Assembly (NCBI RefSeq): GCF_002284565.1
Contig: NZ_NPKI01000015.1
Span: 248,001-312,000, forward strand
Origin: Mesorhizobium mediterraneum
GTDB lineage: Bacteria; Pseudomonadota; Alphaproteobacteria; Rhizobiales; Rhizobiaceae
Length of the DNA: 64,000 nucleotides
Direction of reading: 5' to 3'
The notes below the pieces were generated by a model, which was given only the letters and a program-made list of their open reading frames with translations, ran no database searches and was not told the origin of the DNA. Both the position numbers and the translations under genes were made by a program. Positions 12,352 through 22,496 of the stretch are shown piece by piece. The first letter of the stretch is position 1. Each line of letters starts with the position of its first letter.

Positions 12352-13428
12352 TTGGCACAGACAACCCATGGCGTCGGCGGACTCAGCTATGATGCGAAGA
12401 AGCGCACATGGCCTGCCGAATTCAACGTTTTCCTGGCGCTCATCATCCTCGTCGGCGCCTTCGAGCTGATAGGCCGTGTCTTTCTTGGCGACAGCTTTCT
12501 GTTCAACACCCGCGCCAATGTCGATACGATCTTCAACGAGGCGCGCCTGCAGATCATCATCCTGCAGGTGTCGATCGTCGGCATCATCGCCATCGGCGTG
12601 ACGCAGGTGATCATTTCCGGCGGCATCGACCTTTCCTCTGGTTCGATCGTCGGCGCCACGGCGATGATCGCCATGAGTTTCGCCCAGGTAGCGACGGTCA
12701 ACGGCAACCCTAACCCCAAGGCGGTGTTCCTCGCGCAAGGCTGGACCGACCTGCCGGTGATCGTGCCGGTGCTGGTCGCGATCGGCTGCGGCCTGCTGGC
12801 GGGCTTGGTCAACGGCTCGTTGATCGCCTACACGCGCATTCCGCCGTTCATCGCCACGCTCGGCATGATGGTCACCGCGCGCGGCATCGCCAAATGGTGG
12901 TCCAAGGGGCAGCCGATCTCGTTTCCCACCGAGAGTTTCGCCGCCATCGGCAAGGGGTTGATGCCGGTCATCATCTTCATATCGCTGGCGATTCTGTTCC
13001 AGCTGATCCTGTCATACACCAGGTACGGCAAGCACTGTTATGCCATCGGCTCCAACGAGGACGCCGCCCGGATGTCCGGCATAAATGTCCAGAACCACAA
13101 GATCCTCGTCTTCGTCATTGCCGGCATCCTCGCCTCGCTCGCCGCCGTGGTGCTGAGCTCCAAGAACCTCACCGCTCAGGCCGGCATGGGTGTGATGTAC
13201 GAGTTGGACGCCATCGCCATGGCGGTCATCGGCGGCGTCTCGCTGTCGGGCGGCCGCGGCTCGATCATCGGAACGGTGATCGGTGCGCTGATCTTCGGCG
13301 TCATCATCTCCGGCTTCACCTTCCTGCGCCTCGACGCCTACTACCAGGAGATGGTCAAGGGCGTGATCATCATCGGCGCAGTCGTTCTCGACCAGTGGCG
13401 CCAGCGCCTGCGGGCAATGAGGGCTTGA
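12352..13428 (+). CDS. Inositol-type ABC transporter permease
   Basis: This 358-residue permease of the RbsC/BPD_transp_2 family has about eight to ten hydrophobic segments. Family signatures include GGIDLSSGSIVGATAMIA, RIPPFIATLGMMVTARGIA and YCAIGSNEDAARMSGINV-type text (YAIGSNEDAARMSG). The start is a TTG at 12352 with GGAGG about ten bases upstream. It forms the membrane channel for the binding protein upstream and the single-domain ATPase downstream. Confidence 0.9.
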   Translation: MAQTTHGVGGLSYDAKKRTWPAEFNVFLALIILVGAFELIGRVFLGDSFLFNTRANVDTIFNEARLQIIILQVSIVGIIAIGVTQVIISGGIDLSSGSIVGATAMIAMSFAQVATVNGNPNPKAVFLAQGWTDLPVIVPVLVAIGCGLLAGLVNGSLIAYTRIPPFIATLGMMVTARGIAKWWSKGQPISFPTESFAAIGKGLMPVIIFISLAILFQLILSYTRYGKHCYAIGSNEDAARMSGINVQNHKILVFVIAGILASLAAVVLSSKNLTAQAGMGVMYELDAIAMAVIGGVSLSGGRGSIIGTVIGALIFGVIISGFTFLRLDAYYQEMVKGVIIIGAVVLDQWRQRLRAMRA

Positions 13429-13430
13429 TC

Positions 13431-14198
13431 ATGTCAGACATCGTCCTGAAGACCGAAAACCTGACCAAATACTATGGCGGCGTGCATGCGCTCGAAAGCG
13501 CGAACTTCGAGCTGCGCAAGGGCGAGCATGTCGCCATCATGGGTGACAACGGCGCCGGCAAGTCGACCTTCGTGCGCCAGATCACCGCCGTCGAGCAGCG
13601 CACCAGCGGCAAGGTCTGGTTCGATGGCAAGGAAGTGAACTTCGCCGGCCCGATCGCGGCGCGCGAGGCGGGCATCGAAACGGTGTTCCAGAACCTGGCG
13701 CTTGCCGACGATCTCGACGTGCCATCGAACCTGTTTCTCGGCCGCGAGAAGGTGCTTTTCAATCTCGGGCCTTTCTCGATCCTCGATCGCAAGTTCATGC
13801 GCAAGGCGACCGAGGCGGCGTTGATCCGCACGGCGGTCAAGATTCCCAATCTCAACAACACCATCCGCCACATGTCGGGCGGCCAGCGCCAGTGCGTGGC
13901 GATCGCCAGAACCGCGACCTTTGCGTCCAAGCTCATCATCATGGATGAGCCGACGGCAGCACTTGGCGTGCAGGAGACGATGCAGGTCGAAAACATCATC
14001 CGCACGCTGAAAGCCAATGGCGAGCCGTTGATCCTGATCAGCCACAACATGCGCCAGGTGTTCGACCTTTGCGACCGCATCGTTGTCTTCCGGCGCGGCC
14101 GCATCGTCGCCAATTTGCGCAAGCAGGACACCGACGGCAACGATATCGTCTCATATATCACCGGCGCCAAGACCGGGGAGGCGGAACTTGCGGCCTAG
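13431..14198 (+). CDS. Inositol-type ABC transporter ATP-binding protein (single ATPase domain)
   Basis: The 255-residue ATPase has Walker A GDNGAGKS, signature MSGGQRQ, Walker B LIIMDEPTAAL and the switch His in LISHNM. Unlike the RbsA-type two-domain ATPase at 30336-31883 it has only one ABC domain, as in the FrcA-like group of rhizobial sugar importers. The ATG at 13431 lies two bases after the permease stop. It energises sugar or cyclitol uptake. Confidence 0.92.
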   Translation: MSDIVLKTENLTKYYGGVHALESANFELRKGEHVAIMGDNGAGKSTFVRQITAVEQRTSGKVWFDGKEVNFAGPIAAREAGIETVFQNLALADDLDVPSNLFLGREKVLFNLGPFSILDRKFMRKATEAALIRTAVKIPNLNNTIRHMSGGQRQCVAIARTATFASKLIIMDEPTAALGVQETMQVENIIRTLKANGEPLILISHNMRQVFDLCDRIVVFRRGRIVANLRKQDTDGNDIVSYITGAKTGEAELAA

Positions 14199-14326
14199 GG
14201 CCAATGCCGGCGCGGGTCATCGACCCGTCGCCGATCTGCCGCGATAAGAAAATCTACTGCGCCTCGCGCTGAACGGTGCAGGAAAGACGCACTTCCATTT
14301 TCGAACAATCCTCAAAGGAAATTCCC

Positions 14327-15328
14327 ATGTCTCTCCGCTTCGCTCTTCTCGGTGCCGGCCGCATCGGCAAGGTCCACGCCCGTGCCGTTGGTTCCAATCC
14401 GCAGGCCAGGCTGGTGGCAGTTGCCGATGCCTTCGAGAAGGCGGCGACGGATCTGGCGTCGGCCTATGGCGCCGAAGTACGAACCATCGAGGCCATCGAA
14501 AAAGCCGGAGATATCGACGCAGTCATCATCTGCACGCCGACCGACACCCATGCCGACTTGATCGAGCGGTTCGCCAAGGCCGGCAAGGCGATCTTCTGCG
14601 AGAAGCCGATCGACCTCGACGCCGGCAGAGTGGAAGAATGCCTTGAAGTGGTCGACAAGGCCGGAGCCACTTTGATGGTTGGCTTCAATCGCCGCTTCGA
14701 TCCGCATTTCGCCGCCGTGCGCAAGGCGATCGACGACGGCGCCATCGGCACGGTCGAGATGGTGACTATCACGTCGCGCGATCCCGGCCCGCCGCCACTC
14801 GATTATATCGGCCGCTCGGGCGGCATCTTCCGCGACATGACCATCCATGATTTCGACATGGCGCGCTTCCTGCTCGGCGAGGAGCCGGTGGCCGTCAGCG
14901 CCCATGCCTCGGTGCTGGTCGACAGACAAATCGGCGAGGCCGGCGACTTCGACAGCGTCAGCGTCATCCTCGAAACCTCTTCCGGCAAGCAGTGCATCAT
15001 CTCCAATTCGCGCCGCGCCACCTATGGCTACGACCAGCGCATCGAGGTGCATGGCTCGAAAGGCATGATTGCGGCCGAGAACCAGCGGCCGGTGTCGATC
15101 GAACTGGCCAATGAAAAGGGCTATACGCGCCCGCCGCTGCACGACTTCTTCATGACCCGCTACCTCGACGCCTATGCCAACGAGATCGCTGCCTTCATCG
15201 CGGCGGCGACATCAGGCAAGAAGGCGGCGCCGAGCGGCAAGGACGGGCTCGTCGCGCTGAGGCTGGCGGACGCGGCGCTGAAATCGGCGAAGGAAGGCAA
15301 GACCGTTCGCCTCGACAAGACAGTCTGA
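14327..15328 (+). CDS. iolG: Inositol 2-dehydrogenase (IolG/IdhA type)
   Basis: The 333-residue Gfo/Idh/MocA oxidoreductase opens with the NAD-binding LLGAGRIGKVHARAVGSN. It carries FCEKPIDLD (catalytic-site Lys of the EKP motif), GFNRRFDPHFAAVRKAI and GGIFRDMTIHDFDMARFLLGEEP, with the Asp/His pair of inositol dehydrogenases. It oxidises myo-inositol to 2-keto-myo-inositol (scyllo-inosose), the entry step to IolE. The ATG at 14327 has AAAGGAA upstream. It follows the transporter by 128 bases and probably shares its regulation. Confidence 0.9.
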   Translation: MSLRFALLGAGRIGKVHARAVGSNPQARLVAVADAFEKAATDLASAYGAEVRTIEAIEKAGDIDAVIICTPTDTHADLIERFAKAGKAIFCEKPIDLDAGRVEECLEVVDKAGATLMVGFNRRFDPHFAAVRKAIDDGAIGTVEMVTITSRDPGPPPLDYIGRSGGIFRDMTIHDFDMARFLLGEEPVAVSAHASVLVDRQIGEAGDFDSVSVILETSSGKQCIISNSRRATYGYDQRIEVHGSKGMIAAENQRPVSIELANEKGYTRPPLHDFFMTRYLDAYANEIAAFIAAATSGKKAAPSGKDGLVALRLADAALKSAKEGKTVRLDKTV

Positions 15329-15351
15329 CTATCAAGCACAGGAGCAAGGCG

Positions 15352-16146
15352 ATGAACGGTTCCGCCGGTCGCAATTCAGAAACACGCGCCATCGTCACCG
15401 GCGGTGCGCAAGGCATTGGCTTCGCCGTCGCTGAGGCGCTGGCTGATGAGGGCTGCCGGGCGCTGGCGCTGGTCGGCCGCTCGCAGGAGAAGGGCGACAA
15501 GGCCGTCGCCATCCTCAAGAAGTCGGGCGTCGACGCCATCTTCATCAGCGCCGATGTTTCCAAAGTGGCCGACTGCAAGCGCGCGGTCGAAACGGCGATC
15601 GGCCATTTCGGCAGCGTCAACGCGCTGGTCAATGCCGCCGCCACCTCGGCGCGCGGTTCACTGGTCGAGACGAGTGAAGAGCTTTTCGACCAGATTTTCC
15701 AGACCAATGTGCGCGGCCCCTTCTTCCTGATGCAGGGCGTGGTGGCGCAGCTGCTCGCCCGCAAGGCGCCAGGCTCGATCGTCAATGTGCTGTCGATGTC
15801 GGCGCATTGCGGGCAATCGTTCCTGGCGCCCTATTCGTCGAGCAAGGGCGCACTGGCGACGCTGACCAAGAATGTCGCCAACGCGTACCGCAGCAACCGC
15901 ATCCGTTGCAACGCCGTGCTGCCCGGCTGGATGGACACCGAGGGCGAGGCGATCGTGCAGAAGAAATGGCACGATGCGCCTGATAACTGGCTGGAAAAGG
16001 CCGAGGCGGCGCAGCCGATGGGCCAATTGGTGAAGCCGGACCAGCTTGCCCGGCTGATCAGCTATATGGTCAGCCCGCAGTCGGGCGTCATGACCGGGTC
16101 GCTGGTCGACTATGACCAGAATATTGCGGGATCGTCGCCGGAGTAG
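15352..16146 (+). CDS. SDR-family oxidoreductase, probable polyol/cyclitol dehydrogenase
   Basis: This classical 264-residue short-chain dehydrogenase has TGGAQGIGFAVAEAL for the cofactor, NAAATSARG at the NAG position, the catalytic Ser in LSMSAHCG and YSSSKGALA with the Tyr-x-x-x-Lys pair. It starts 23 bases after iolG. This is consistent with oxidation of a sugar, polyol or another inositol isomer. No motif fixes the substrate. Confidence 0.85.
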   Translation: MNGSAGRNSETRAIVTGGAQGIGFAVAEALADEGCRALALVGRSQEKGDKAVAILKKSGVDAIFISADVSKVADCKRAVETAIGHFGSVNALVNAAATSARGSLVETSEELFDQIFQTNVRGPFFLMQGVVAQLLARKAPGSIVNVLSMSAHCGQSFLAPYSSSKGALATLTKNVANAYRSNRIRCNAVLPGWMDTEGEAIVQKKWHDAPDNWLEKAEAAQPMGQLVKPDQLARLISYMVSPQSGVMTGSLVDYDQNIAGSSPE

Positions 16147-16811: not shown

Positions 16812-16840
16812 GTGACAAGCGCCCCGGCTTCGATTATATG
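16812..16840 (+). promoter_or_regulatory. Candidate promoter of the aro leader transcript
   Basis: GTGACA (16812-16817) and TTATAT (16834-16839) have -35/-10 character with a 16-base spacer. A start seven bases after the -10 would fall at or just before the leader ATG at 16847, which would make the leader message leaderless. The tryptophan leader trpL of Sinorhizobium meliloti is reported to be leaderless in this way. The exact start site is inference. Confidence 0.5.
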
Positions 16841-16846
16841 AGCCGC

Positions 16847-16918
16847 ATGATCAACCTGACCGCCACATATTGGTACTTTAGGAGCTCGCTGGCGGCGGGA
16901 GGATTGCGCTCGATCTGA
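16847..16918 (+). CDS. Leader peptide with Tyr-Trp-Tyr-Phe run (aromatic attenuator)
   Basis: A 23-codon ORF reads MINLTATYWYFRSSLAAGGL, then RSI and a TGA. Four consecutive codons, 16868-16879, specify Tyr-Trp-Tyr-Phe, one run covering all three aromatic amino acids. It ends 25 bases before a terminator hairpin and 89 bases before the DAHP synthase start. An in-frame ATG at 16838 overlaps the -10 element, so 16847 is preferred. Its role is to let ribosome stalling report charged tRNA levels for Tyr, Trp and Phe. Confidence 0.8.
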   Translation: MINLTATYWYFRSSLAAGGLRSI

Positions 16919-16968
16919 AGATTGCAGCATCAAAATCCGAACAGCCGCCAGACCTGGCGGCTTTTTTT
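16860..16968 (+). promoter_or_regulatory. Four-segment transcription attenuator upstream of aroG
   Basis: Segment 1 CCGCCA (16860-16865) can pair with TGGCGG in segment 2. Segment 2 CTGGCGGC (16889-16896) can pair with segment 3 GCCGCCAG (16944-16951). Segment 3 also pairs with segment 4 CTGGCGGC (16954-16961), which is followed by T7. The Tyr-Trp-Tyr-Phe codons lie just after segment 1. A ribosome stalled there would cover segment 1 and let 2:3 form (read-through). A ribosome at the stop codon would cover segment 2 and allow the 3:4 terminator. Segments 2 and 4 are identical, as this switch requires. Confidence 0.8.
16943..16968 (+). terminator. Rho-independent terminator (attenuator hairpin)
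   Basis: The stem AGCCGCCAG (16943-16951) and CTGGCGGCT (16954-16962), with a two-base loop centre, is followed directly by a run of T to 16968. It is a perfect nine-base-pair stem located between the aromatic leader peptide and the DAHP synthase gene. Confidence 0.9.
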
Positions 16969-17007
16969 GTTTCAGCCGGCAGGTCTCCCAATCAGGAGCA
17001 GAGAGCC

Positions 17008-18099
17008 GTGTTGACCACCACAGATGATCTTCGGGTCAAGGAAATCCGAGAACTGAGTACGCCGGACCAGGTGATGCGGGAGATACCGCGCACGCTGACG
17101 GCGACGCGCACCGTGACCGCGTCGCGCAACGCTATCCACGCCGTGCTGACCGGCACTGACGATCGGCTGATCGTCGTCGTCGGCCCCTGCTCGATCCACG
17201 ACCCGGCCGCCGCCGTAGACTATGCCAGCCGCCTGGCATCGCTGCGCGAAAGCCTGTCCGATCGGCTGGAGATCGTGATGCGCGTCTATTTCGAGAAGCC
17301 GCGCACGACGGTCGGCTGGAAAGGCCTGATCAACGATCCTGACCTCGACGGCAGCTTCAACATCGACAAAGGACTGAGGCTGGCGCGCAACGTTCTCTCC
17401 GCCGTCAACAATCTTGGCCTGCCGGCGGCGACCGAATTCCTCGACATGGCCACCCCGCAATACATTGCCGACCTCGTCGCCTGGGGCGCGATCGGCGCGC
17501 GCACGACGGAGAGCCAGATCCATCGGGAACTCGCATCCGGCCTGTCCTGCCCGGTCGGCTTCAAGAACGGCACCGACGGCAATTTGCGGATCGCCGCCGA
17601 GGCGGTGAAATCCGCCGCCCAGCCGCATCATTTCTTGGCGGTGACGAAGGGCGGGCGCAGCGCCATCGCGACGACCACCGGCAACGAGGACTGCCACGTC
17701 ATCCTGCGCGGCGGCATTCAGCCCAATTATGACGCGGCAAGCGTCGCCGCCGCCGGTGCGGAACTCGCCCGGATCGGCGTCGCGCCCCGGCTGATGATCG
17801 ATGTCAGCCACGCCAACAGCAACAAGAAGCCAGAGAATCAGCCGAAGGTAGCGGCCGACGTGGCGGGCCAAGTCGCGGCAGGCGACGAGCGCATTATCGG
17901 CGTCATGATCGAGAGCAACCTCGTTGCCGGCCGGCAGGACGTCATGCCCGGCAAGCCGCTCGTCTACGGCCAGAGCATCACCGATGGCTGCATCGACTGG
18001 GCAACCACCGAAACGGTGCTGCACGGCCTTGCCGACGCGGTCGAGCAACGCCGGTCGGCGCGACGCGCCCTGGTCGCCAGCCGCCCGGGAGCCGCTTGA
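17008..18099 (+). CDS. aroG: Class I 3-deoxy-7-phosphoheptulonate (DAHP) synthase
   Basis: The 363-residue enzyme is a class I (AroG/F/H-type) DAHP synthase. It has VVVGPCSIHDPAAAVDYA, VMRVYFEKPRTTVGWKGLINDPDLDGS, AATEFLDMATPQYIADLVAWGAIGARTTESQ and the metal His in HANSNKKPENQ (RLMIDVSHANSNKK). It joins PEP and erythrose 4-phosphate in the first step of the shikimate pathway. The start is a GTG at 17008 with AGGAG ten bases upstream. Rhizobia commonly use class II enzymes, so this may be a second isozyme. Its attenuator suggests control by all three aromatic amino acids. Confidence 0.93.
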   Translation: MLTTTDDLRVKEIRELSTPDQVMREIPRTLTATRTVTASRNAIHAVLTGTDDRLIVVVGPCSIHDPAAAVDYASRLASLRESLSDRLEIVMRVYFEKPRTTVGWKGLINDPDLDGSFNIDKGLRLARNVLSAVNNLGLPAATEFLDMATPQYIADLVAWGAIGARTTESQIHRELASGLSCPVGFKNGTDGNLRIAAEAVKSAAQPHHFLAVTKGGRSAIATTTGNEDCHVILRGGIQPNYDAASVAAAGAELARIGVAPRLMIDVSHANSNKKPENQPKVAADVAGQVAAGDERIIGVMIESNLVAGRQDVMPGKPLVYGQSITDGCIDWATTETVLHGLADAVEQRRSARRALVASRPGAA

Positions 18100-18103
18100 C
18101 GCT

Positions 18104-18300
18104 TTCCCCTTCTCCCCTTGTGGGAGAAGGTGGATCGGTGCGCAGCACCGAGACGGATGAGGGGTGCTGGAGGAAATGAGGCGTTGAGATATCGAGTGAT
18201 TTTAGGTTCTTAAGACGTCAAAGTCGCGATCTGGCCAACACCCCTCATCCGACCGAGCTTCGCTCGGCCACCTTCTCCCATAAGAAGGGGAGAAGGGGAG
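18104..18300. repeat. REP-like paired palindromic element between convergent genes
   Basis: Two inverted copies of a unit face each other. The unit is CTTCTCCCCTTGTGGGAGAA-type hairpin, then a variable small hairpin (GGTGCGCAGCACC left; CCGAGCTTCGCTCGG right), then GATGAGGGGTG. The same unit recurs at 29133-29280. It lies between aroG and the convergent oxidoreductase gene and probably provides bidirectional termination. Confidence 0.8.
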
Positions 18301-18312
18301 CCAACGCCCGCG

Positions 18313-19422
18313 CTACCTAACATCCAACCAGCGCTGTTCCTCGAACGAGCGCGCCATGGCATGCACGGTGCGCTCGATCTCCAGGCCTTCGTCGAAATCG
18401 ATGATGCGCGCCGGCTTGCCGGCGAGCCTGGTCAGCAGTTCTCGGCATTCGATGATCTTGAGATCGTTGAAGCCGAGACCGTGGCCGGGTGCCGGCAGGA
18501 AGGCGTCGTAAGGTCTGTGGTGCGGCGCCACCAGGATGGTTCGGTAACCCTGCTCGGTCGGCCGGTCGGCGGTGAGATAGAGCTGGAACTCGTTCATCCG
18601 CTCCTGATCGTACAGGATCGAGCCCTTCGAGCCGAAGATCTGGATAGCGATCCGGCCCTTGCGGCCCCAGGCCGAACGGTTGGCCAGCAAGGTGCCGGCA
18701 ACGCCGTTTTCGAGGTGCATCAGCACGCTGGCGATGTCATAGGTCTCGACCGTGCGGCGCCCGCCTGAAGCGACGCGGCGATCGGCATAGGGTTTTGCCA
18801 TGTCGCACATGACGCGGGCGACGCGGCCGAACAGCACGGCGACCAGCGACAGCGGATGCACCGCGAAATCGTCGAGCACGCCGTAGCCGGACGCCGCCTC
18901 GTGCTTCCAGAAGAACAGCGCCTCTGGATCGGCCATGAAATCCTCGTCCATCTCGATGCGCAGATGGTTGACCTCGCCGATGATCTTTTCGTCGAGCAGC
19001 GCACCGATATGGCGGATCGCGGGGTTCTGGATGTAGTTGTAGCCGAGGGCTGCCACCTTGCCGGATTTTTTCGCTGCTGCCGCCATGGCTTCGGCTTCTG
19101 CGAAGCCCGGCGCCATCGGTTTTTCGCACCATAGATGCTTGCCGGCTTCGAGGATGGCGATGGCCATTTCCGGATGGAACTGGTTTGGCGTCGTCAACGA
19201 GACGATATCGACCTCGGGGTCGTTAACGACGGCGCGCCAGTCACCGGAACCCTTGGCGAAGCCGAATTCGGTGGCACGGCGCTTGGCAAGGTCCTCGTCG
19301 ACCTCGCCGAGATGGACCAGCCTTGGTTTGGCCACGTCGGGAAAGACAGTGCCGACCGCGTTCCAGGCGATGGCGTGGCACTTGCCCATGAAGCCTGTGC
19401 CGATAAGACCGACTCCGACCAT
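18313..19422 (-). CDS. Gfo/Idh/MocA oxidoreductase divergent from iolR (scyllo-inositol/inosamine dehydrogenase candidate)
   Basis: The 369-residue dehydrogenase has an N-terminal GVGLIGTGFMGKCHAIAWNAV Rossmann motif, LWCEKPMAPGFAEAEAMA (EKP lysine), GYNYIQNPAIRHIGALL and SGYGVLDDFAVHPLSL with the Asp/His of the active site. It is divergent from the RpiR regulator. That is the layout of the S. meliloti iol cluster, where a Gfo/Idh/MocA gene next to iolR has been linked to inositol isomer use. The exact substrate (scyllo-inositol, inosamine or another) is inferred. Confidence 0.85.
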   Translation of the reverse strand: MVGVGLIGTGFMGKCHAIAWNAVGTVFPDVAKPRLVHLGEVDEDLAKRRATEFGFAKGSGDWRAVVNDPEVDIVSLTTPNQFHPEMAIAILEAGKHLWCEKPMAPGFAEAEAMAAAAKKSGKVAALGYNYIQNPAIRHIGALLDEKIIGEVNHLRIEMDEDFMADPEALFFWKHEAASGYGVLDDFAVHPLSLVAVLFGRVARVMCDMAKPYADRRVASGGRRTVETYDIASVLMHLENGVAGTLLANRSAWGRKGRIAIQIFGSKGSILYDQERMNEFQLYLTADRPTEQGYRTILVAPHHRPYDAFLPAPGHGLGFNDLKIIECRELLTRLAGKPARIIDFDEGLEIERTVHAMARSFEEQRWLDVR

Positions 19423-19465
19423 TCCCTTGTCTCCGCTATCAGGAAGATTTGCGTGGATGAATTAG

Positions 19466-19497
19466 TCCATTTTATCCAGAAATGGAACGCATGCCTC
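19466..19497. promoter_or_regulatory. Candidate operator between the oxidoreductase gene and iolR
   Basis: A perfect inverted repeat TCCATTT-N7-AAATGGA (19466-19486) overlaps a GGAA-CGCATG-CCTC half-site (19484-19497). That half-site resembles the perfect GGAA-CGCGTG-TTCC in front of iolC. It lies in the 130-bp divergent region and is a plausible autoregulatory IolR target. Confidence 0.4.
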
Positions 19498-19574
19498 ATT
19501 TTTTATGGCCTTCTTGCACAGGCTCGCTATGATGGGGCACACAGCATCGACTGATGGGCCTAGGCGGAGCGACG

Positions 19575-20420
19575 ATGGACGAACGGGTGCCCCGCGATTT
19601 CGAGACGCTGCGTACGACGATCCTGGAACGGCGCCATAGCCTGCCCAAGCGTATCGCGCAGATCGCCGCCTATGCGCTCGACAATCCCGACGATATTGCC
19701 TTCGGCACCGCCGCCAGCATAGCCGCCTCCGCCGGCGTTCAGCCTTCGACCCTGATCCGCTTTGCCCAGCAGCTCGGCTTCGACGGCTTCACCAGCCTGC
19801 AGCTGGTATTTCGCGAGCGCCTGCGTGAGCGCAATTCGTCCTATGATGAAAGGCTGGCGGCATTGCGCGCCAAGGCCGAGGAAGGCGCCGGTCACCGGGC
19901 GATCTTCGACGGCTTCGTCGCCGCGGCCAGCACCTCGCTCAACGATATTTCAGGCAGGTTGAACGAAGAGCATTTCGAAGATGCTATCGCCTTGCTGGCG
20001 AAGGCGGAGACCATCTATGTGCTGGCCAAGCGCCGCTCCTATCCGGTCGCCTCCTACATCGCCTATGCGCTGGGCAAGCTCAAGATCCGCAACCAGCTGA
20101 TCGAATCGGCCGCCGGACTCAACGCCGAGATGATCGGCTTTGCCTCGCCCAGGGATGCCGTCATCGCCATCAGTTTCTCACCCTATGCCCCGGCGGCCAT
20201 CGAGGAGGCGCGCGTCATCTCCGAGCAAGGCGTGCCGATCGTGGCGATCACCGACAGCTCGTTCTCTCCGCTCGCCCAGTTCGCCAAGGTCTGGTTCGAG
20301 GTTGCCGAGGCTGATTTCGCCGGCTTCCGCTCGCTGTCGGCGACCATGGCGCTGGCCATGGCGCTGACCGTCGCGGTTGGCGAGAAGCGCCGCGACACGG
20401 GCCGCAAGCGCAAGGCCTAG
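19575..20420 (+). CDS. iolR: RpiR-family regulator IolR
   Basis: The protein of about 281 residues has an N-terminal RpiR HTH (FETLRTTILERRHSLPKRI, then TAASIAASAGVQPSTLIRFAQQLGFDGF). A C-terminal SIS sugar-phosphate-binding domain follows (IYVLAKRRSYPVASYIAYAL, ISFSPYAPAAIEEARVI, PIVAITDSSFSPLA). It is placed directly upstream of iolCDEB, as in S. meliloti, where IolR represses the inositol genes and is relieved by a pathway intermediate. The ATG at 19575 has GGCGGAG upstream; an ATG at 19554 is also possible. Confidence 0.9.
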   Translation: MDERVPRDFETLRTTILERRHSLPKRIAQIAAYALDNPDDIAFGTAASIAASAGVQPSTLIRFAQQLGFDGFTSLQLVFRERLRERNSSYDERLAALRAKAEEGAGHRAIFDGFVAAASTSLNDISGRLNEEHFEDAIALLAKAETIYVLAKRRSYPVASYIAYALGKLKIRNQLIESAAGLNAEMIGFASPRDAVIAISFSPYAPAAIEEARVISEQGVPIVAITDSSFSPLAQFAKVWFEVAEADFAGFRSLSATMALAMALTVAVGEKRRDTGRKRKA

Positions 20421-20450
20421 GTGGCCATCGCGCCAGCACTTTTCAGCAAA

Positions 20451-20494
20451 GGAACGCGTGTTCCATATTGACTATGGATTGGAATTATTATTTC
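20451..20494 (+). promoter_or_regulatory. Two IolR-type sites in the iolC promoter
   Basis: GGAA-CGCGTG-TTCC (20451-20464) matches the GGAA-N6-TTCC motif reported for S. meliloti IolR exactly. A second copy, GGAA-TTATTA-TTTC (20481-20494), is one base off and is the same variant as the site at 11035-11048. A TTGACT at 20468-20473 lies between them and could be the -35. Two sites flanking the promoter fit repression. Confidence 0.65.
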
Positions 20495-20561
20495 ATATTG
20501 CCGGCGCCACGCTGCCGCTCGCGCGTGTTACCCAAGACAACAAGGCTGATGGGAGGTTCGA

Positions 20562-22496
20562 ATGGGCGAAGCCGTGGACGCGAAACATGCGCCGCTCGAC
20601 GTCATCACCATTGGCCGCGCCTCCGTCGATCTCTATGGTCAGCAGATCGGCTCGCGCCTGGAGGACATCACCTCCTTTGCCAAGTCGGTCGGCGGCTGTC
20701 CGGCCAATATTTCAGTCGGCACGGCGAGGCTTGGCCTGCGCTCGGCGCTGCTCACCCGCGTCGGCGACGAGCAGATGGGCCGCTTCATCCGCGAGCAGCT
20801 GACGCGCGAGGGCGTATCCGTCGACGGCCTCAGGACGGACCCCGACCGGCTGACCGCGCTGGTGCTGTTGTCGGTCGAGGAGGAAGGCGTCTCGCCGATG
20901 ATCTTCTACCGCTCCGACTGCGCCGACATGGCACTTTCGGAAGCCGATATCGACGAAGCGTTCATTGCCTCGGCGCGCGCGATCGTCGTCACCGGTACGC
21001 ATTTTTCGCGGCCCAACAGCGATGCCGCGCAGCGCAAGGCGATCCGCGCTATCAAGGCCAAGGGCGGCAAGGTGGTGTTCGACATCGACTATCGCCCCAA
21101 CCTCTGGGGGCTGGCCGGCCATGCCGAAGGGTTCGAGCGCTATGTGAAATCCGACCGGGTCTCGGCCCAGTTGAAGACGGTGCTGCCCGACTGCGACCTC
21201 ATCGTCGGCACCGAAGAAGAGATCATGATTGCCTCCGGCGCCGACGATTGCCTGAATGCGTTGAAGACGATCCGCTCGCTGTCCAAGGCCACCATCGTCT
21301 TGAAACGCGGCGCCATGGGCTGCATCGTCTATGACGGGCCGATCAGCGACGATCTCGAAGACGGCATTGTCGGCAAGGGCTTTCCGATCGAGGTCTACAA
21401 TGTGCTCGGTGCCGGCGATGCCTTCATGTCGGGCTTCCTGCGCGGCTGGCTGGGCGAGGAAAGCCTTGAGACGGCGGCGACCTGGGCCAATGCCTGCGGC
21501 GCCTTCGCCGTGTCGCGGCTGCTCTGCGCGCCGGAATACCCGACCTTCGAGGAATTGCAGTTCTTCCTGAAGAACGGCAGCCAGCACCTGGCTTTGCGCA
21601 AGGACGAGGCGATCAACCATATCCATTGGGCGACGACGCGCCGGCGCGACATTCCCTCGCTGATGGCGCTGGCCTGCGACCACCGTATCCAGCTTGACGA
21701 TGTCGCCGCGAAAGCCGGCGCCGACCCGTCGCGCATCCATGATTTCAAGGTGTTGACGGTCAAGGCGGCGGCGAGGATTGCCGCCGGCCGCGCCGGCTAC
21801 GGCATGCTGCTCGACGAGAAATACGGCCGCGAGGCGATGTTCGAATTCGCCCGCCATTCCTTCGCCTGGCTCGGCCGGCCGGTCGAGCTGCCGGGATCGC
21901 GGCCGCTTCGTTTCGAATTCTCGCAGGACATCGGCTCGCAATTGATCGAGTGGCCGGTCGACCATTGCATCAAATGCCTGTGCTTCTATCACCCCGACGA
22001 CCCGGAAGCGCTGAAGACTGAGCAGCAGCAGAAGCTCAAAAGCCTGTTCGAGGCGGCGCGGAAAGTGGGCAGAGAACTTCTCATCGAGATCATTGCCGGC
22101 AAGCACGGCGAGCTCGACGACACGACGATCCCGCGCGCGCTCGAGGAACTCTACGCGCTTGGCATCAAGCCTGACTGGTGGAAGCTCGAACCGCAGGCTT
22201 CAGCCGGGGCTTGGGCAAAGATCGAGGCGGTGATCCTGAAGAACGACCCATGGTGCCGCGGGATTGTGCTGCTCGGCCTGGAAGCGCCGCTGGACGAGCT
22301 GGAAGCGGCCTTTGCCGCCACCGCCGAGGCGCCCATCGTCAAGGGTTTCGCCGTCGGCCGCACCATCTTCATCAACGCAGCCGAACAATGGCTTGCCGGC
22401 AAGATGTCGGACGAGGAAGCGGTGGCCGACATGGCGTCGCGCTTCGAGAGGCTGACCGAGGCATGGCTTGCCGCGCGCGGCCGCAAAGCAGCATAA
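20562..22496 (+). CDS. iolC: IolC 5-dehydro-2-deoxygluconokinase fused to DUF2090 aldolase-like domain
   Basis: This is a 644-residue fusion. Residues 1 to about 330 are a PfkB kinase (GGCPANISVGTARLGL, NVLGAGDAFMSGFLRGWL with the catalytic Asp) that phosphorylates 2-deoxy-5-keto-gluconate. Residues about 345-640 are DUF2090, with a class-I-aldolase-like barrel (LMALACDHRIQLDDVA, GYGMLLDEKYGREA, VKGFAVGRTIF). Bacillus IolC is kinase only; proteobacteria often carry this fusion. The second half may cleave the kinase product (the IolJ step), since no separate iolJ is in the cluster. It is the first gene of iolCDEB. Confidence 0.92.
   Translation: MGEAVDAKHAPLDVITIGRASVDLYGQQIGSRLEDITSFAKSVGGCPANISVGTARLGLRSALLTRVGDEQMGRFIREQLTREGVSVDGLRTDPDRLTALVLLSVEEEGVSPMIFYRSDCADMALSEADIDEAFIASARAIVVTGTHFSRPNSDAAQRKAIRAIKAKGGKVVFDIDYRPNLWGLAGHAEGFERYVKSDRVSAQLKTVLPDCDLIVGTEEEIMIASGADDCLNALKTIRSLSKATIVLKRGAMGCIVYDGPISDDLEDGIVGKGFPIEVYNVLGAGDAFMSGFLRGWLGEESLETAATWANACGAFAVSRLLCAPEYPTFEELQFFLKNGSQHLALRKDEAINHIHWATTRRRDIPSLMALACDHRIQLDDVAAKAGADPSRIHDFKVLTVKAAARIAAGRAGYGMLLDEKYGREAMFEFARHSFAWLGRPVELPGSRPLRFEFSQDIGSQLIEWPVDHCIKCLCFYHPDDPEALKTEQQQKLKSLFEAARKVGRELLIEIIAGKHGELDDTTIPRALEELYALGIKPDWWKLEPQASAGAWAKIEAVILKNDPWCRGIVLLGLEAPLDELEAAFAATAEAPIVKGFAVGRTIFINAAEQWLAGKMSDEEAVADMASRFERLTEAWLAARGRKAA

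Follow-up and report, generated by a model that had tools for sequence, protein, structure and literature searches.

A predicted attenuator encoding all three aromatic amino acids precedes the class I DAHP synthase gene of Mesorhizobium mediterraneum

The aroG leader and its conservation

We analysed a 64-kb stretch of Mesorhizobium mediterraneum DNA (contig NZ_NPKI01000015.1; hereafter the window, to whose positions all coordinates refer). It contains aroG, the gene of a class I (AroFGH-type) 3-deoxy-D-arabino-heptulosonate 7-phosphate (DAHP) synthase, whose product scores 530.6 bits against TIGR00034 (cut-off 173.2). Between a putative promoter and aroG lie a short leader open reading frame (ORF) with four consecutive aromatic codons and an intrinsic terminator. 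The locus thus carries consecutive codons for end products, a pathway gene downstream, a terminator, and an antiterminator that uses the terminator 5′ arm and is mutually exclusive with it. We read the leader as a ribosome-mediated transcription attenuator tying class I DAHP synthase expression to charged aromatic tRNAs, with a probability of roughly 0.88. An aromatic attenuator ahead of a DAHP synthase gene had been proposed from a reading of the sequence alone; our analysis confirms this feature, and the ORF, its codons, the terminator, the antiterminator pairing and conservation support that proposal. The features are listed below, where counts out of 184 refer to the leaders of the order compared in this section.

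16812–16817, plus strand: −35 element GTGACA; an NTGACA-like element lies at the same place in most relatives
16835–16840, plus strand: −10 element TATATG, with a 17-bp spacer from the −35 element and 6 nt before the leader ATG at 16847
16847, plus strand: probable transcription start on the A of the leader AUG (leaderless), from promoter geometry, the rarity of Shine-Dalgarno (SD) sites and the trpL layout
16847–16918, plus strand: leader ORF of 23 amino acids, MINLTATYWYFRSSLAAGGLRSI, a conserved ORF of 23–28 codons
16860–16865, plus strand: segment 1, CCGCCA, 5′ arm of a possible 1:2 hairpin, which pairs in the whole-leader fold
16868–16879, plus strand: control codons Tyr-Trp-Tyr-Phe (TAT TGG TAC TTT); WYF in 174/184 leaders
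16889–16896, plus strand: segment 2, CTGGCGGC, within the leader ORF; 2:3 pairing in the stalled-ribosome fold in 180/184
16901–16905, plus strand: 5′ strand of the antiterminator middle helix, partner 16934–16938; permutation test, 57.9% of cells paired
16908–16928, plus strand: antiterminator inner hairpin with the stop codon in its loop; 7/8 pairs changed on both sides, 68.8% of cells paired
16916–16918, plus strand: leader stop codon TGA; its distance to the first segment 2 core (GGCGG/AGCGG) is 25 nt in 174/184
16934–16938, plus strand: 3′ strand of the middle helix, from the fold, the permutation test and covariation
16943–16968, plus strand: intrinsic terminator, stem 16943–16950 with 16955–16962 and T7 at 16962–16968; consensus scan, z −4.29, 184/184 leaders
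16944–16951, plus strand: segment 3, GCCGCCAG, common to antiterminator and terminator, from sequence, folding and covariation
16954–16961, plus strand: segment 4, CTGGCGGC, with letters identical to those of segment 2
16994–16998, plus strand: aroG SD sequence AGGAG; an SD-like four-mer lies at 179/184 aroG starts
17008–18099, plus strand: aroG, class I DAHP synthase, GTG start, 363 amino acids (TIGR00034)

A direct check of the letters confirmed the four segments where the sequence-only reading had placed them, the identity of segments 2 and 4, and the T7 run. Its 23-codon ORF with consecutive Tyr, Trp, Tyr and Phe codons is likewise there, running from the ATG at 16847 to the TGA at 16916–16918. 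The element had been taken to begin at 16838; this in-frame ATG falls within the −10 element and lacks conservation among relatives, and we excluded it as the leader start. In an alternative register, the −10 element reads TTATAT (16834–16839), 7 nt before the ATG. The aromatic run is separated from segment 2 by 9 nt. Among ATG-started ORFs of 12–45 codons on both strands of the window, the leader alone has four consecutive aromatic codons (it is counted twice, through its two in-frame ATGs), and no such ORF arose in 40 dinucleotide shuffles of the window.

Class I aroG is present in 138 of 146 Mesorhizobium genomes, in 15 of 297 sampled genomes of the family (5 of 109 genera), in 59 of 397 sampled from the order and in 14 of 385 sampled from the class. 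We compared 185 distinct upstream regions, of which 134 come from Mesorhizobium, 10 from elsewhere in the family and 41 from other families of the order. Four of the 138 Mesorhizobium genomes, in which aroG is fragmentary (G078, G088, G122, G132), five of the 46 genomes of other families, and G814 were not taken in; L145–L148 are duplicates. Conservation in relatives, for which the sequence-only reading had called as a test, was found: 184 of the 185 regions carry a leader ORF of 23–28 codons with at least three aromatic codons within eight, and a terminator was detected in all 184. The remaining region, L040, has no complete leader and stands outside the 184.

Trp, Tyr and Phe codons occur together in 181 of the 184 leaders, each of which has 4 to 8 aromatic codons. 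WYF is preceded by a Tyr or Phe codon in 166 of the 174 leaders that have it, and across the order Tyr and Phe interchange while the aromatic codons stay. Leaders matching named Bradyrhizobium records (L149, L151 and L155), for example, begin MITVATSYFWYFSYDS, and those of family f6 contain FYWYFSYPLP. Between the aromatic run and the first GGCGG/AGCGG core lie 11 nt in 88 leaders, 17 nt in 75 and 8–23 nt in the other 21. The frame between ATG and segment 2 is constant in 179 of 184 despite the variation in length, which points to translation of the leader.

Several features of individual leaders were noted in passing. All 174 leaders with WYF use TTT for its Phe, whereas its Tyr codon is TAC in 157 and TAT in 17; the invariant TTT may reflect selection, either on the RNA or for a codon that is slow. 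Four loci of the same family (L041–L044) have a second layout, Y..RFY.YRC, which follows the same logic of promoter and terminator and has a matching, different antiterminator; Trp is present in two of them (L042, L044). The distance from leader stop to aroG start, mostly 86–90 nt, is 142–152 nt in seven loci (L018, L020, L066, L076, L081, L089 and L091) owing to extra DNA between terminator and aroG, which in L018 and L020 contains an inverted repeat around GCATGAT.

Alternative RNA structures and the proposed mechanism

Folding energies were compared with those of 200 shuffles. The terminator (16939–16969) reached the z score listed above, with 0 of 200 shuffles as good; the antiterminator fragment (16886–16951) gave z −3.28 (1/200) and the whole leader (16847–16969) z −1.88 (10/200). 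The fragment 16886–16951 folds as one rod, in which 16889–16896 pairs with 16944–16951 and 16901–16905 with 16934–16938, capped by the hairpin 16908–16928. The loop of this hairpin consists of the leader stop codon and one base. Pairing of segments 2 and 3, proposed from the sequence alone, stands, but the antiterminator appears to go beyond it: three helices would stack into a rod that carries the leader stop codon at the tip.

Covariation gives this rod moderate support. In an alignment (A1) of 29 of the 184 leaders, chosen to be under 90% alike, the antiterminator scored 0.152, compared with 0.117 ± 0.010 in shuffles (0/500 as high) and at most 0.073 when the structure was slid along the alignment. 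Among these leaders, both sides have changed in seven of the eight inner-hairpin pairs. The strands of the middle helix pair better with their own partners than with permuted ones (6/2,000 permutations as good), and 18 of the 29 do better than their mean with the partners of other groups. The stop codon keeps its distance from the segment 2 core, as listed, and in 137 of 184 antiterminator folds none of its three bases is paired.

We then modelled folding with a ribosome on the leader, using footprint values that are assumptions from general knowledge; the leading edge of a stalled ribosome was placed 15 nt beyond the point where the last codon of the longest aromatic run begins. In this stalled state the 2:3 pairing forms in 180 of 184 leaders, and the terminator forms in 182 of 184 when the ribosome occupies the stop codon. 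The sequence thus fits classical attenuation, since stalling yields the antiterminator and completed translation the terminator. The 2:3 and 3:4 parts of the 1:2/2:3/3:4 scheme of the sequence-only reading held up; the 1:2 hairpin is visible in the fold of the whole leader and is its least supported part, as the tests given below indicate.

Our model builds on the ORF, codon run, terminator, alternative antiterminator pairing, promoter geometry and linkage to aroG, all of which are read from sequence and comparison. To these it adds a start site, stalling, an amino-acid response, an action of the ribosome at the stop codon and a role for the 1:2 hairpin, which we infer. Transcription would begin on the A of the AUG at 16847 or no more than one or two bases away, and a ribosome would load without an SD site and trail RNA polymerase. 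When charged Tyr-, Trp- or Phe-tRNA is short, the ribosome would stall on 16868–16879 and leave segment 2 free. Free segment 2 would allow the long antiterminator (2:3 pairing, middle helix and stop-codon hairpin) to form, and polymerase would read into aroG. When all three are plentiful, the ribosome would reach the stop codon at the antiterminator tip, where its footprint would block the rod; segment 3 would then pair with segment 4, and transcription would end in the T-run, giving a transcript of ~120 nt.

Several observations weigh against this reading. Two pair counts that are more robust to relatedness than the covariation score separate the antiterminator less clearly from shuffles: pairs changed on both sides number 12 versus 9.1 (19/500 as high), and further pair types 25 versus 26.7 (431/500 as high). 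RNAalifold applied to A1 predicts just the terminator and a 3-bp helix, and no antiterminator; for this reason the antiterminator was tested as a named structure from the window's own fold, that is, one taken from one of the aligned sequences. In the middle helix, 57.9% of the cells in A1 are paired. The terminator also forms without a ribosome (182/184), so that the fold by itself does not show regulation. For the 1:2 hairpin, the fragment 16847–16900 gave z −0.77, with 42 of 200 shuffles as good, and its covariation was not above control (154/500 shuffles as high). L040 appears to be a decayed attenuator that has kept promoter, ATG and YWYF codons (AYWYFSNG) yet lost the stop codon, antiterminator and terminator. 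A class II DAHP synthase is also encoded elsewhere in the M. mediterraneum genome, which makes aroG a second isozyme and not the sole entry to the pathway. Finally, Trp is missing from some leaders: L099, of the same genus, has CGG (Arg) for TGG (Trp) and so encodes Tyr-Arg-Tyr-Phe, and several leaders of other orders (L202, L203, L204 and L206) are without Trp.

Amino acids sensed, transcript start and leader product

The absence of Trp from L099 and from those leaders of other orders means that Trp sensing is not general, and it bears on how many amino acids the Mesorhizobium leader responds to. The leader encodes all three aromatic amino acids, and by its codons it would sense all three. 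An attenuator that responds in practice to one or two of them (Phe, Tyr), with a Trp codon of no effect, is a real possibility, although we consider it somewhat improbable. It has a precedent in the Phe-Tyr-Phe leader aroR of Corynebacterium glutamicum, which in the available text of PMC11802643 is acted on by Phe limitation and not by Tyr availability. Retention of the Trp codon in 181 of 184 leaders of the order speaks for the broader response, and in our simple footprint model a ribosome stalled at the last codon of the run still permits 2:3 pairing in 180 of 184. This retention suggests that Trp matters in this order, though leaders of other orders lack it.

A second question is where the transcript begins. 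We searched for the best-scoring promoter among spacers of 15–19 bp and gaps of 2–13 nt to the ATG; in 175 of 184 leaders it had a 17-bp spacer and ended 6–7 nt before the leader ATG. When the regions are aligned on the leader start codon, NTGACA peaks near −35 and TATA at −12 or −13; for Mesorhizobium the consensus has this TATA starting 12 nt upstream of the ATG, and for the other families 13 nt upstream. An SD-like four-mer is found at 2 of 184 leader ATGs, against 179 of 184 aroG starts. From this geometry and the rarity of SD-like sites, the leader transcript is probably leaderless, like trpL of Sinorhizobium meliloti, with transcription predicted to start at the leader AUG or within a base or two of it. 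The S. meliloti trpL RNA begins with its AUG, according to the available text of PMC7298713 and PMC10117765. In our genome trpL (MNMRSIKTVWWWAR), located via trpE, shows a matching layout on inspection by eye, with −10 element and ATG 7 nt apart; a search by Trp-run pattern had matched an unrelated place. Leaderless starts do occur in the group, as 192 start sites of Bradyrhizobium were mapped exactly onto start codons (available text of PMC4842269).

A conventional 5′ untranslated region, with a start upstream of the AUG and translation from an unrecognised site, is in our view unlikely. The start is placed here from sequence, and a strict sigma-70 consensus scan gave no site at this position, both of which leave room for it. 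The −35/17/−10 geometry nevertheless puts the start on the AUG in 175 of 184, the SD-like four-mers are distributed as described, and positions upstream of the −35 element are little conserved.

Could the main product be a small protein or a trans-acting small RNA, with attenuation secondary? The last 12 codons, stop included, are identical down to the wobble bases in 126 of the 134 Mesorhizobium leaders, and both rnTrpL and peTrpL of S. meliloti act in trans (available text of PMC7298713). We judge such a main product quite unlikely. Formation of the antiterminator by those same codons would explain their wobble-level identity, the C-terminal peptide differs between families, and strong leader matches accompany aroG in the samples searched (see below). 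By analogy with rnTrpL, a trans role of the terminated RNA in addition to attenuation is a possibility.

A chance ORF beside an ordinary terminator of the upstream gene, which could also end upstream transcripts, is untenable given the conservation in 184 of 185 relatives, which already refutes it, the compensating changes and the absence of such an ORF from 40 shuffles.

Distribution, relation to known systems and significance

To follow the leader further, we built a covariance model (R1) from the 29 distinct leaders. In the M. mediterraneum genome R1 has one full-length site, the aroG leader. Among 385 sampled alphaproteobacterial genomes, 14 have a match with E ≤ 8.3 × 10⁻⁸, and these are the 14 with class I aroG; the model and aroG searches each drew 385 genomes, and the sameness of the draws is taken from equal handles where these were listed. 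In 13 of these 14 genomes aroG directly follows the leader; in the remaining one the leader lies at the end of a contig, and aroG opens another. Weaker matches (E 1.4 × 10⁻⁶ to 1 × 10⁻³) in 26 further genomes are partial and mostly cover the terminator end, with the exception of G1065 (E 4.7 × 10⁻⁴, 52 nt), which spans the model. We counted them as noise, with a cut set after the list was seen, and treated weaker partial matches in the own genome and the phylum sample likewise. A second match within the genus (G080:C44, 28.7 bits) was rejected, as it has no leader ORF.

A search of named genomes with a leader-only pattern pointed the same way: of the 117 matches listed, 114 lie directly before class I aroG, two do not, and one is cut by the end of its stretch. 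A first test of 80 of them had placed 78 before aroG. The genera among the matches listed include Bradyrhizobium, Mesorhizobium, Devosia, Kaistia, Phenylobacterium and Novosphingobium. One locus from a record titled Frankia sp. RB7 (L328) has the same leader DNA as L150, from a Bradyrhizobium-like genus (g143), and the record is probably mistitled.

In 349 genomes of the phylum, R1 also found matches outside the class, in 28 genomes, of which 21 loci were read and seven were not included in that reading. Eighteen of the 21 precede class I aroG (for example MNAARASFYFWYYFPKPLAEEGLRSP and MSAKFYFYFFWHLKPLADREG), two pheS and one pheA. The pheS (L271, L274) and pheA (L276) loci are cross-matches at lower score to a known kind of Phe attenuator. 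The sequence-only reading had considered such a leader for a rhizobial aroG; its distribution is far wider than the rhizobia. A rather doubtful extension of these findings would be an old three-amino-acid sensor spanning several classes, turned on by stalling and off by a pause at the stop codon, which is set at a fixed distance on the rod tip, whose ~120-nt RNA and peptide would also act in trans.

The surroundings of aroG in the window (12352–16146 and 18313–22496) encode sugar/inositol catabolism, unrelated to aromatic biosynthesis, including a bifunctional IolC-type kinase/aldolase scoring above cut-off, dehydrogenases and, by eye, an ABC transporter. Just 3′ of aroG lies a long imperfect palindrome (18105–18299) with three nested arm pairs of 15–17 nt, which we take to resemble a dispersed rhizobial intergenic repeat. 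In one alphaproteobacterium, a cobalamin riboswitch lies 3′ of aroG (L201, 2811–3017). Upstream of the class II DAHP synthase of the M. mediterraneum genome there is no ATG-started aromatic ORF; two GTG/TTG ORFs with three scattered aromatic codons in eight, and one T5 run, are present there. We did not accept these ORFs as the same leader.

The closest known case is aroR of C. glutamicum, which lies before aroF and, like the leader described here, combines an aromatic-codon leader peptide, a DAHP synthase gene and ribosome stalling (available text of PMC4046766 and PMC11802643). It belongs to another phylum than Mesorhizobium and, compared by its description in the available text of PMC11802643, differs in its Phe-Tyr-Phe run, in which no Trp is mentioned, and in answering to Phe and not Tyr. 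In Pseudomonadota, attenuation has been proposed for aroF of Escherichia coli and Shewanella (available text of PMC2659441 and PMC8632094); it is described as sensing Tyr-tRNA, and the description used for comparison gave no leader peptide or structure. The uORFC-13-1 motif before aroF (24 sequences, Acholeplasma and environmental) resembles our leader in its predicted leader ORF, terminator and DAHP synthase gene, and differs in having at least one Phe codon and a ribosome-binding site (available text of PMC8632094). Two upstream-ORF candidates of Stav et al. 2019 place Phe and Tyr codons before shikimate genes, in other genomes, the alphaproteobacterium named being SAR11 HIMB5 (available text of PMC6429828). 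In the parts of these sources available, neither a Trp codon nor a leaderless start appears among the described DAHP synthase leaders (C. glutamicum aroR, E. coli aroF, Acholeplasma).

Leaders of other genes share the logic. The trpL leader of S. meliloti and of our genome is a ribosome-mediated attenuator that leaves a short RNA after termination (available text of PMC7298713 and PMC10117765); it is leaderless in S. meliloti, and in our genome has the same −10-to-ATG distance as the aroG leader. It differs in having Trp codons only, in preceding trpE(G), in its 14-amino-acid peptide and in sequence. The E. coli-type pheA and pheST leaders are Phe-rich, work by the same logic and are matched by R1 at lower score, but precede other genes in genomes of another class and have Phe as their main codon. 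Reportedly, Neshat et al. 2014 described the C. glutamicum aroR leader before aroF, and Camakaris et al. 1980 are said to have proposed attenuation for E. coli aroF.

Rfam, including Trp_leader (RF00513), gave no match over the gathering threshold at the leader in the window or in ten relatives; a sub-threshold RF00513 match elsewhere in the own genome (30.7 bits) was by eye not a trp leader. No leader peptide family was matched by six peptides in NCBIfam or four in Pfam, such short peptides being hard for hidden Markov models. The main text of PMC6429828 does not contain aroG, aromatic or Rhizobiales, that of Naville and Gautheret 2010 (PMC2965389) does not contain aroG, aroF, aromatic or rhizobi, and that of the Bradyrhizobium start-site paper (PMC4842269) does not contain aroG or attenuation. 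We found no description of an aroG leader in Alphaproteobacteria in the literature searched; Vitreschak et al. 2004 lies outside that scope, and an earlier mention is possible. Ribosome-mediated attenuation is known as a kind; apparently new are the encoding of all three aromatic amino acids, the probably leaderless start and the stop codon that appears to sit at the antiterminator tip.

The pathway to all aromatic amino acids begins with DAHP synthase. E. coli controls its aroF and aroH genes through the repressors TyrR and TrpR (available text of PMC11802643). Control of aroG in Mesorhizobium appears to sit in the RNA, in one leader that encodes all three end products. In the alphaproteobacterial sample this leader and class I aroG correspond one to one, and the leader also occurs in other classes. 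For Mesorhizobium, Bradyrhizobium, Devosia and other genomes it supplies a rule by which a small ORF can be annotated, and its natural variants, with and without Trp and including one decayed copy, make the number of amino acids sensed per attenuator directly testable.

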